This document shows, in pieces, positions 11,390 through 13,864 of a stretch of 64,000 nt of DNA. The translations under genes and the position numbers were made by a program. Each line of letters begins with the position of its first letter. Position 1 is the stretch's first letter. The notes beneath the pieces were generated by a model. That model had not been told where the DNA came from. It was given only the letters and a program-made list of their open reading frames with translations, and searched no databases. The stretch is from Pseudothermotoga elfii DSM 9442 = NBRC 107921 (lineage in GTDB: Bacteria; Thermotogota; Thermotogae; Thermotogales; DSM-5069): positions 496,001 through 560,000 of the forward strand of contig NC_022792.1 of assembly GCF_000504085.1 (NCBI RefSeq), read 5' to 3'.

Positions 11390-11418
11390 TTGACATGTGT
11401 GCTTTAATGTAGTATTAT
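11390..11418 (+). promoter_or_regulatory. Sigma70-type promoter of the amino acid transporter operon
   Basis: A perfect TTGACA at 11390-11395 is separated by 17 bases from TATTAT at 11413-11418. Transcription would start near 11425, giving a leader of about 200 bases that contains the small ORF and attenuator. Confidence 0.85.
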
Positions 11419-11448
11419 TTTGGAAAAATAGTGATAGGAGTTGCTCAA

Positions 11449-11553
11449 ATGTTTATAAATTTATTTGAAAAGAAAGCATCTCAAATGATAAAGCATTACA
11501 ACAGAGGCAGCCCGGTTTTCTTCCCGGGTAGCATCTGTTGTGGTGCTGCTTAA
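11449..11553 (+). CDS. Leader peptide with tandem Cys codons (34 aa)
   Basis: This short ORF has an ATG at 11449 with GGAG eight bases upstream (11437-11440). It encodes 34 residues ending FFPGSICCGAA and a TAA stop. Two adjacent TGT cysteine codons sit at 11536-11541, inside the 3' arm of the first leader hairpin. The ORF lies between a strong promoter and an intrinsic terminator in front of an amino acid ABC transporter. This is the arrangement of a transcription-attenuation leader peptide, with cysteine availability as the probable signal. The peptide itself need not have a function. It is too short for routine gene calling, and I know of no named family that it matches. Confidence 0.7.
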   Translation: MFINLFEKKASQMIKHYNRGSPVFFPGSICCGAA

Positions 11554-11604
11554 AGGGAAGATAGAGAAAAAACCGGGCTGCTGAAAAGTAGCCCGGTTTT
11601 TTTT
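11498..11604 (+). promoter_or_regulatory. Four-segment transcription attenuator in the transporter leader
   Basis: Segment A (11498-11515) pairs with B (11524-11541): eight perfect pairs, ACAACAGA with TCTGTTGT, then an interrupted GC-rich top. Segment C (11567-11579) pairs perfectly over 13 bp with D (11590-11602), forming a terminator. The 3' part of A (11507-11519, GCAGCCCGGTTTT) is also perfectly complementary over 13 bp to C (11569-11581), which would disrupt the terminator. A ribosome stalled on the TGT codons would cover B and leave A free to pair with C, giving read-through. A ribosome reaching the stop lets A:B and C:D form, giving termination. Confidence 0.75.
11567..11604 (+). terminator. 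Intrinsic terminator of the leader
   Basis: AAAAAACCGGGCT pairs with AGCCCGGTTTTTT (13 bp) around a 10-base loop, with the T-run continuing to 11604. It lies 21 bases before the binding-protein start and forms the regulated terminator of the attenuator. Confidence 0.9.
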
Positions 11605-11625
11605 ATATCACAGGAGGTGATTTTG

Positions 11626-12384
11626 GTGAGAAGGTTTTTTGTCATTTTAATTGTAACCGCTCTCTTGTTTACAGGTTTGGCTTCTTTGATCGATGATATT
11701 CAGAAAAGAGGCGTACTCAGAGTTGGTCAGGATGAAGGATATATGCCGCTCTATGGTACTGATGAAAAAGGTGAGCGAGTTGGACTTGAAGTTGAACTTA
11801 TAAACAAAATAGCAGAAATACTTGGAGTAAAGGTAGAGTACGTAATTGTCAACTGGGATGGAATCATACCGGCTTTAATTTCCGGAAAGTTCGACATTAT
11901 CTTCTCTGGTATGACTATCACGCCAGAGAGAGCTTTAAAGGTGAATTTTTCAGCGCCGTATTTAACAGTTGGTCAGGCAATTCTCTACAACAAAAGTGTT
12001 TTTAAGACACCACCAACCTATCAAGATTTGGCTGATAAGCCTGTAAAGATAGCTGTCCAGCTGGGAACAACGGGAGAATTTACTGCAAGAAGAAAATTTC
12101 CAAAGGCTGAGATTTTAACTTTCTCTACTATGGATGAAGCAGCCTTTCAGGTAGTTTCGAAACGCGCGGATATAATGGTTAATGATTCTATCTATGTCAA
12201 ATTTCTCACTCAAAAATATGAAACCCTTGGTATGACAAACGAACTCTTGAGCAGAGAAGATCTTGGAATAGCTATCAGAAAAGGAGACATGGAGGCTCTA
12301 AGATGGTTTGATACTTTTGTTCAGTGGGCGAAAACCAGTGGTCTGATAGAAGAATTGCATCAGAAGTGGCTTGGCAACGAGTGA
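11626..12384 (+). CDS. Amino acid ABC transporter substrate-binding protein
   Basis: This is the extracytoplasmic binding protein of a polar amino acid importer (solute-binding family 3), 252 residues. The first 20 or so residues form a signal peptide (MRRFFVILIVTALLFTG). The mature part starts with the family-typical IQKRGVLRVGQDEGYMP and has the FDIIFSGMTITPERALKVNF signature. A GTG at 11626 lies eight bases from the GGAGG at 11613-11617; TTG 11623 is an alternative. It is the first gene of a binding protein-permease-ATPase operon. The substrate is not readable from the family; cysteine or cystine is inferred only from the Cys codons in the leader. Confidence 0.9.
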   Translation: MRRFFVILIVTALLFTGLASLIDDIQKRGVLRVGQDEGYMPLYGTDEKGERVGLEVELINKIAEILGVKVEYVIVNWDGIIPALISGKFDIIFSGMTITPERALKVNFSAPYLTVGQAILYNKSVFKTPPTYQDLADKPVKIAVQLGTTGEFTARRKFPKAEILTFSTMDEAAFQVVSKRADIMVNDSIYVKFLTQKYETLGMTNELLSREDLGIAIRKGDMEALRWFDTFVQWAKTSGLIEELHQKWLGNE

Positions 12385-12416: not shown

Positions 12417-13136
12417 GTGAAAAAAGTTTATGCCATTGCCATGACGGCAGGAGTTATGATTGCAATTTATCTTGCAATTTCCCGGGTCTATCCTTTCGAC
12501 TGGACAGTTGTTCTGAAATATCGTCGTGTGTTCATAAATGGTTTGGTAATGACTATGAGTTTAAGTGGGTTTTCACTGCTTATTTCATTTGCTGTGGGGA
12601 TAGTTTTCGCTCTTATGAGAAGGTCAAGTGGTATTTTCAGAGAATTTGCGATACTATACGTTTTTTTCTTCAGGAACACCCCCTTACTTGTTGTGATTTT
12701 GCTGACTTACTATGGTCTTGGAAGTATAATTCCATTCGATAGATTCTGGGCGGCTGTGATGGGTTTATCTGCTTTTGAAGGAGCATATATTGCGGAAATT
12801 GTAAGATCTGGTCTTGATGCAGTTGATAAAGGCGAACTTGAAGCAGCTTTTTCACTTGGTTTAACAAAATCAGAAGTTTTCTTCTATGTACATTTTCCCC
12901 AGGCAATAAGAATTTCCTTGCCAGCACTTATCGGGCAATCTATAAGTCTTGTGAAAGACAGTTCGTTAGCCTCTGTGATAGCGCTTGCCGAATTAACCAT
13001 GACGGGCAGGCAGGTTGGTACACAAACACTCGCTTCTTTTGAAAGTTACTTGACTATAGCTGTTTTTTATGTGGCGGTTACAAGCATTTTGTCTTTGATT
13101 GGGCACTGGCTTGAAAGGAGGCTTGCTATACCGTGA
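12417..13136 (+). CDS. Amino acid ABC transporter permease
   Basis: This is the membrane subunit of the polar amino acid importer, 239 residues with about five membrane segments. It has the HisM/GlnP family pattern: NGLVMTMSLSGFSLLISFAVG near the N-terminus, FFRNTPLLVVILLTYYGLG in the middle, and the ATPase-docking EAA loop GELEAAFSLGLTKSEVFFYV. I chose GTG 12417, eight bases after GGAGG at 12404-12408; upstream frame would run back into the binding-protein gene. Only one permease gene is present, so the transporter probably uses a homodimer. The stop overlaps the ATPase start in GTGA. Confidence 0.92.
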   Translation: MKKVYAIAMTAGVMIAIYLAISRVYPFDWTVVLKYRRVFINGLVMTMSLSGFSLLISFAVGIVFALMRRSSGIFREFAILYVFFFRNTPLLVVILLTYYGLGSIIPFDRFWAAVMGLSAFEGAYIAEIVRSGLDAVDKGELEAAFSLGLTKSEVFFYVHFPQAIRISLPALIGQSISLVKDSSLASVIALAELTMTGRQVGTQTLASFESYLTIAVFYVAVTSILSLIGHWLERRLAIP

Positions 13137-13864
13137 GTTTATTGAAGGTTGTTGATGTTCACAAATCTTTTGGAAATACAAAGGTGCTAAACGGTGTTTC
13201 CTTGCAAGTGGATAAGAGTGAAATAGTTGTAATAATGGGGCCTTCTGGTGCTGGTAAATCTACGCTTTTGAGAATTATGAATTATTTAGTAAAACCAGAT
13301 GAAGGATATATCCTCTTCAAGGGCGAAAAACTTTCAGATGATATGAGAGTTCTCAGGCAGATAAGATCTCAAATAGGTTTTGTTTTTCAGCATTTTAATC
13401 TATTCAGACATTTAACAGTCGTGCAGAATGTTATGCTGGGTTTATTGAGAGTTAAAAAACTTTCTAAAAGTGAAGCTTATGACGTAGCCATGAACTGCCT
13501 TGAAATGGTTGGTTTGTCTGACAAGGCGCGGAGTTATCCATCACAACTGTCAGGAGGGCAGAAGCAAAGAGTTGCTATAGCAAGAGCACTTGCAATGAAA
13601 CCGGATTTGATTCTTTTTGATGAACCAACATCAGCTTTAGATCCAACTCTTGTCAATGAAGTACATCAGGTTATGAAAAAATTAGCAGCGGATGGTCACA
13701 CGATGGTCGTGGTGACGCATGAAATAGGGTTTGCGAGGAATGTCGCAACGAGAATTGTTTATATGGAGAATGGAGTAATAATCGAAGAGGGAAATCCAGT
13801 TGACTTTTTCACTTGCCCCCACACGACAAATGTGAGAGATTTTCTTTCAAGTGTTTACACGTGA
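13133..13864 (+). CDS. Amino acid ABC transporter ATPase
   Basis: This is the ATP-hydrolysing subunit of the importer, 243 residues, close to the GlnQ/HisP family. Walker A is GPSGAGKST (about residues 35-43), the signature is LSGGQKQRVAIARALA, and Walker B is LILFDEPTSALDP, followed by the switch histidine in VVVTHEIGFA. The GTG start overlaps the permease stop, with an upstream GGAGG, so it is translationally coupled. It is the last gene of the operon. Its stop touches the stop of the convergent gene with no spacer and no evident terminator. Confidence 0.95.
   Translation: MSLLKVVDVHKSFGNTKVLNGVSLQVDKSEIVVIMGPSGAGKSTLLRIMNYLVKPDEGYILFKGEKLSDDMRVLRQIRSQIGFVFQHFNLFRHLTVVQNVMLGLLRVKKLSKSEAYDVAMNCLEMVGLSDKARSYPSQLSGGQKQRVAIARALAMKPDLILFDEPTSALDPTLVNEVHQVMKKLAADGHTMVVVTHEIGFARNVATRIVYMENGVIIEEGNPVDFFTCPHTTNVRDFLSSVYT

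Follow-up and report, generated by a model that had tools for sequence, protein, structure and literature searches.

Upstream of a three-gene amino-acid ABC importer in Pseudothermotoga elfii DSM 9442, a short leader ORF is followed by an intrinsic terminator, which raises the question of whether the importer is controlled by leader-peptide attenuation and which amino acid would then be sensed. The window analysed here is the whole stretch of 64,000 nucleotides (NC_022792.1, positions 496,001 to 560,000), and all coordinates are those of the window. The original prediction had described a trp-type attenuator in which two adjacent TGT codons served as a cysteine signal, which would identify the transporter as a cysteine/cystine system. 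The present analysis indicates that attenuation here is very probably ribosome-mediated and histidine-dependent, acting on the transcription of an importer for histidine (probably for basic amino acids) in a histidine auxotroph.

Leader-peptide attenuation has so far been described in Proteobacteria and Actinobacteria and predicted in Firmicutes (PMC2965389). In a survey of RNA regulation including 11 Thermotogales genomes, amino-acid attenuators were regarded as probably of gamma-proteobacterial origin with few transfers (PMC3766115). No report of a His leader in Thermotogota was found in the open-access literature searched, which is not proof of absence. A His-dependent attenuator in this phylum is ordinary in kind, new in place and apparently unreported.

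Anatomy of the leader in the window

The promoter, the 34-codon leader ORF with its own ribosome site, the tandem TGT codons and the intrinsic terminator were all present as originally claimed (Table 1). The promoter is the best-scoring site between 10 and 16 kb of the window, AGGAG lies eight bases 5' of the start of the leader ORF, and the importer genes follow the terminator, which ends in a run of eight T (11597-11604). In the ORF list, the leader frame starts at an upstream GTG (11431) instead of the ATG.

The 13-bp complementarity between segments A and C was exact and was reached in 0/500 dinucleotide shuffles of the upstream segment. The pairing of A with B was also found, with strands longer than those first drawn. 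The A:B hairpin folds at -30.9 kcal/mol (stretch from the His codon to before C) and the terminator C:D at -23.1 kcal/mol. At the 5' base of the A:B stem sits a His codon that had been missed before.

Table 1. Features of the leader and of the importer genes downstream (window coordinates)
Feature	Position	Strand	Remark
Sigma-70-like promoter, TTGACA-17-TATTAT	11390-11418	+	near-consensus
Shine-Dalgarno AGGAG of leader ORF	11436-11440	+	by inspection
Leader ORF, MFINLFEKKASQMIKHYNRGSPVFFPGSICCGAA and stop, 34 codons	11449-11553	+	ATG 11449 to TAA
Regulatory His codon CAT, codon 16	11494-11496	+	conservation; stall-scan optimum
A:B (anti-antiterminator) hairpin, 5' strand	11494-11515	+	
Segment A, GCAGCCCGGTTTT, antiterminator 5' strand	11507-11519	+	pairs with C (13 nt)
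Segment B, 3' strand of A:B	11524-11545	+	contains TGT TGT 11536-11541
Segment C, 5' arm of the terminator; pairs with A	11569-11581	+	
Segment D with T-run, 3' arm of the terminator plus U tract	11588-11604	+	
Substrate-binding protein, family SBP_bac_3	11626-12384	+	
Amino-acid ABC permease, HEQRo type	12417-13136	+	
Amino-acid ABC ATPase	13133-13864	+	

Leaders of orthologous transporters

Orthologs of the binding protein occur in 40/103 genomes of the class, and their upstream regions yielded 32 leaders from five lineages (the window's genus, Kosmotoga-like, Mesotoga-like, Marinitoga and Mesoaciditoga relatives), so few lineages that the leader counts overstate independence. A leader ORF with an open frame of similar length, the A:B hairpin and the terminator were present in 32/32 leaders, and a TTGACA-like promoter was similarly placed in most of them.

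Complementarity of A to C over 6 to 14 nt was observed in 31/32 leaders and is retained with differing sequences (GCCCGGTTTT, GCCCGGTGG and GGTGTGGCCTC). For G089 another stretch was chosen by the script, and by inspection GGTGTGGCCTC faces GAGGCCGCACC with one G-U pair. In the Kosmotoga-like and Mesotoga-like leaders, A:C comprises only 6 to 7 perfect nt, and a match this short, considered by itself, could arise by chance in any one leader (shuffle p 0.02-0.2). In a Mesoaciditoga MAG (G062, L068), part of the C arm (terminator 5' arm) is absent and A:C is broken, reflecting either a natural loss or an assembly error.

Among the window and three congeners, the same columns pair in 89% of A:B cells and 100% of C:D cells, and six A:B pairs are changed on both sides among the four species. 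For A:B and C:D together, the paired cells, double changes and covariation score were as high in no shuffle of 500 and lay far above those of slid versions. The four-segment anatomy originally proposed is kept in the 32 leaders, and A:B covaries within the genus.

No His leader was detected in the stretch upstream of three orthologs, L055 (G068), L026 (G048) and L074 (G090); in L055 and L074 the transporter gene lies closely behind another gene, and at L026 the contig ends. In two Marinitoga-like genomes (L062 in G088 and L064 in G087), a tandem second binding-protein gene carries its own HHH leader, with no clear promoter of its own. Among 80 loci of homologous binding proteins outside Thermotogota, no convincing His leader was found.

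Histidine and cysteine codons

One to three His codons stand just before A in 32/32 leaders. All 66 His among the 928 leader residues lie in a nine-codon core ending at A, where 4.5 would be expected from the composition of the window's proteins, and His is the sole residue found in every member of all five lineages (32/32 cores). In the 30 leaders with A placed without doubt, 4-13 nt separate the last His codon from A. The core motifs were LHHH[KR], KHH.K, RHHSR, HHHLR and KKHVK, and IKHY in the window, where a single His codon (CAT TAC) occupies the place at which the congeners carry CAT CAT or CAC CAT. Both codons are used in the leaders (CAT 45, CAC 21), a pattern that conservation of the peptide instead of the RNA sequence would produce, since the codon varies and His stays. 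Lys was found in 25/32 cores and Arg in 23/32.

In actinobacteria, attenuators with Cys-codon leaders carry tandem Cys codons before the gene, and according to the original prediction a ribosome stalled at the TGT TGT in B would free A for C. These codons are really present in the window, but unlike the actinobacterial ones they are unconserved and lie in the B strand. Tandem TGT at this position was found in none of the three congeners and in no other lineage among the 32 leaders, so conserved Cys codons at the stall site are absent, a loss in relatives that had been named in advance as refuting the prediction. The TGT TGT of the window follows from the complementarity of the B strand to ACAACA on the A side, and the congeners hold the same helix with GTA CTT CGT, GGT ACT TCG or GGT GCT TCG in B. 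Elsewhere, the dipeptide CC occurs at codons 6-7 of the leader in G002 and 5' of CCCGG in the Kosmotoga-like leaders, and such differing places indicate that it is not one conserved feature.

Ribosome stall models

Stalling was modelled by static folding with a masked ribosome footprint, on a transcript ending before D. In the window at 37 °C, the preference for A:C over single-stranded C was -12.1 kcal/mol in the free RNA, -23.4 kcal/mol with the ribosome on His16, -19.2 kcal/mol on Cys30 and -11.8 kcal/mol at the stop codon. At the same temperature, a stall on the first His codon gave shifts of about 5-12 kcal/mol in the leaders of the window's genus, the Kosmotoga-like and most of the Mesoaciditoga-like leaders, and in the Mesotoga-like and most Marinitoga leaders the shift was small or nil.

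When the modelled ribosome was placed on each codon of 28 leaders in turn at 65 °C, a His codon lay at most 1 kcal/mol from the antitermination optimum in 23/28 leaders (His16 in the window), and the optimum was the codon adjoining His in the other five. The optimum was broad in some Mesotoga-like leaders, and a second favourable zone was present in the window at codons 30-32. Although the modelled Cys30 stall thus also favours A:C, His16 is the better modelled stall site in the window (-14.7 compared with -11.7 and -12.1 at 65 °C), and the transporter family has no Cys link. Together with the codons missing in all congeners and lineages, this makes a stall at cysteine codons very unlikely.

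Full-length equilibrium folding was set aside as proof of the switch as it discriminates poorly: in the window at 65 °C the terminator stood at 0.97 in the free state and at 0.74 with the ribosome stalled on the His codon, and it dominates in both states in most leaders. Since the terminator wins at equilibrium, the switch must be kinetic, and we infer that, as attenuators usually do, it depends on the order in which the RNA segments are made.

The view that an ABC importer of Thermotogota is under leader-peptide attenuation is supported jointly by the conserved anatomy, the covariation and the stall models, and on this point the original prediction of trp-type attenuation has held up. For the histidine-dependent switch, we infer ribosome stalling, coupling, read-through and the substrate as follows. 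In the absence of a stalled ribosome, or after its release at the stop codon, A would pair with B and the terminator C:D would form, leaving the importer genes untranscribed. When charged tRNA-His is scarce, the ribosome would halt on the His codon and hold open the A:B stem that starts there, so that A would be free for the emerging C; with A:C formed, RNA polymerase would read through into the importer.

Histidine synthesis genes and the substrate of the importer

HisG and HisD were each found in the same 34/103 genomes, none of which has the transporter ortholog (0 of 103 genomes shared; hypergeometric 4e-10, phylogeny ignored). HisG is absent from all leader-bearing genomes, and the window's genome and genus are without both HisG and HisD; in sister genera of its family, both enzymes occur and the transporter ortholog does not. 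Families f1, f2 and f9 each hold both states, indicating that the exclusion is not a single split. From this exclusion, the importer most likely supplies histidine in auxotrophs, as judged from HisG and HisD.

In six f2 genomes, a lysine riboswitch (RF00168, 98.7-106.1 bits) lies directly upstream of the ortholog in place of the His leader (L018, L019, L020, L021, L023 and L024). Five of these six genomes are without LysA over the cut-off, and LysA is retained in most His-leader genomes. In several Mesotoga-like genomes (G072, G074-G078), the LysA matches span one or two in-frame stops, which may reflect broken genes or matches running past the gene end. In the binding-protein tree, the six riboswitch orthologs are nested among the His-leader orthologs, a position suggesting that the lysine riboswitch of f2 probably took the place of an older His leader.

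The solved structures nearest to the binding protein are AncCDT-1 and 3k4u, and AncCDT-1 is an arginine binder (PMC7683729). The assignment of the importer to cysteine/cystine is not supported, as its orthologs carry a lysine riboswitch in another family and occur only in genomes without HisG/HisD, and the closest solved relative, AncCDT-1, binds arginine. Judged from the genes and the leaders, the data fit a putative importer of basic amino acids, with His and Lys alternating as its main substrate.

An attenuator sensing several basic amino acids, through His and nearby Lys/Arg codons, would match a broad importer of this kind. Lys or Arg occurs near the His codons in all lineages, and these basic residues, with the lysine riboswitch of f2, leave room for Lys/Arg as a co-signal or co-substrate; the arginine-binding relative points the same way. 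However, neither Lys nor Arg is constant in all five lineages, as His is, runs of HHH exist, and LysA persists in most genomes with the His leader, so that such joint sensing appears unlikely compared with histidine as the signal.

For the phylum as a whole, it is tentatively proposed that an old, phylum-wide His attenuator (1:2/1:3/3:4) acts on an importer that replaces His synthesis, and that one lineage swapped it for a lysine riboswitch, which would mark a change in the sensed substrate.

Known RNA families and related attenuators

No Rfam family reached its cut-off in the window leader or in the scanned His-leader loci. The Rfam His_leader (RF00514) gave no match above cut-off in the window or the scanned loci, and the lysine riboswitch was below cut-off in the window and absent from all His-leader loci scanned. 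The trpB motif (RF04312) scored 48.3 bits at window 11498-11608, under its 59-bit cut-off, and was rejected, as the match was not systematic across the 103 genomes and ten other leader loci. In Firmicutes/Fusobacteria, this motif precedes genes for amino-acid ABC transporters and is listed as a 'riboswitch candidate' (PMC11109978). Read in one frame, its consensus gives CAC AGA UAC GAC UUU UAG (H R Y D F stop), and RF04312 may accordingly be a leader-peptide attenuator as well.

The strong conservation of the A:B hairpin structure and the weak likeness to the trpB motif would also suit a metabolite- or protein-binding RNA, or an arrest peptide, with the identity of the codons being secondary. 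Against these readings stand the Rfam results, the His codons found at the stall optimum in otherwise dissimilar leaders, and the peptide beyond the His core, which is not conserved between lineages. They are very unlikely, and histidine-dependent attenuation is retained.

The leader resembles that of the enterobacterial his operon (RF00514), with a His-codon peptide and a mutually exclusive terminator and antiterminator (logic in PMC9413887). It differs in preceding an importer in auxotrophs instead of biosynthesis genes, in having 1-3 His codons instead of a long run, and in that A pairs with B or C (1:2, 1:3, 3:4); in the textbook trp leader, by contrast, segment 2 pairs with 1 or 3. His leader-peptide attenuators have also been predicted in Firmicutes, for hisS*/hisZ (PMC2965389) and for the his operon and hisXYZ (PMC9413887). 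Like the leader described here, these predicted leaders lie outside Proteobacteria and combine His codons with a terminator and antiterminator, and some control a His ABC transporter, but they belong to another phylum and carry three to five consecutive His codons.

Implications for Thermotogota

With a histidine-dependent attenuator at this locus, the known range of leader-peptide attenuation would come to include a deep-branching phylum of thermophiles, at temperatures for which there has been little study of RNA hairpins or of the coupling between transcription and translation. A substrate prediction is also gained for a so far unassigned amino-acid importer, and the leader suggests how Thermotogota without histidine synthesis may sense shortage. 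The orthologs would provide an example from nature in which the sensor of a single transporter gene has changed between a leader peptide and a riboswitch.
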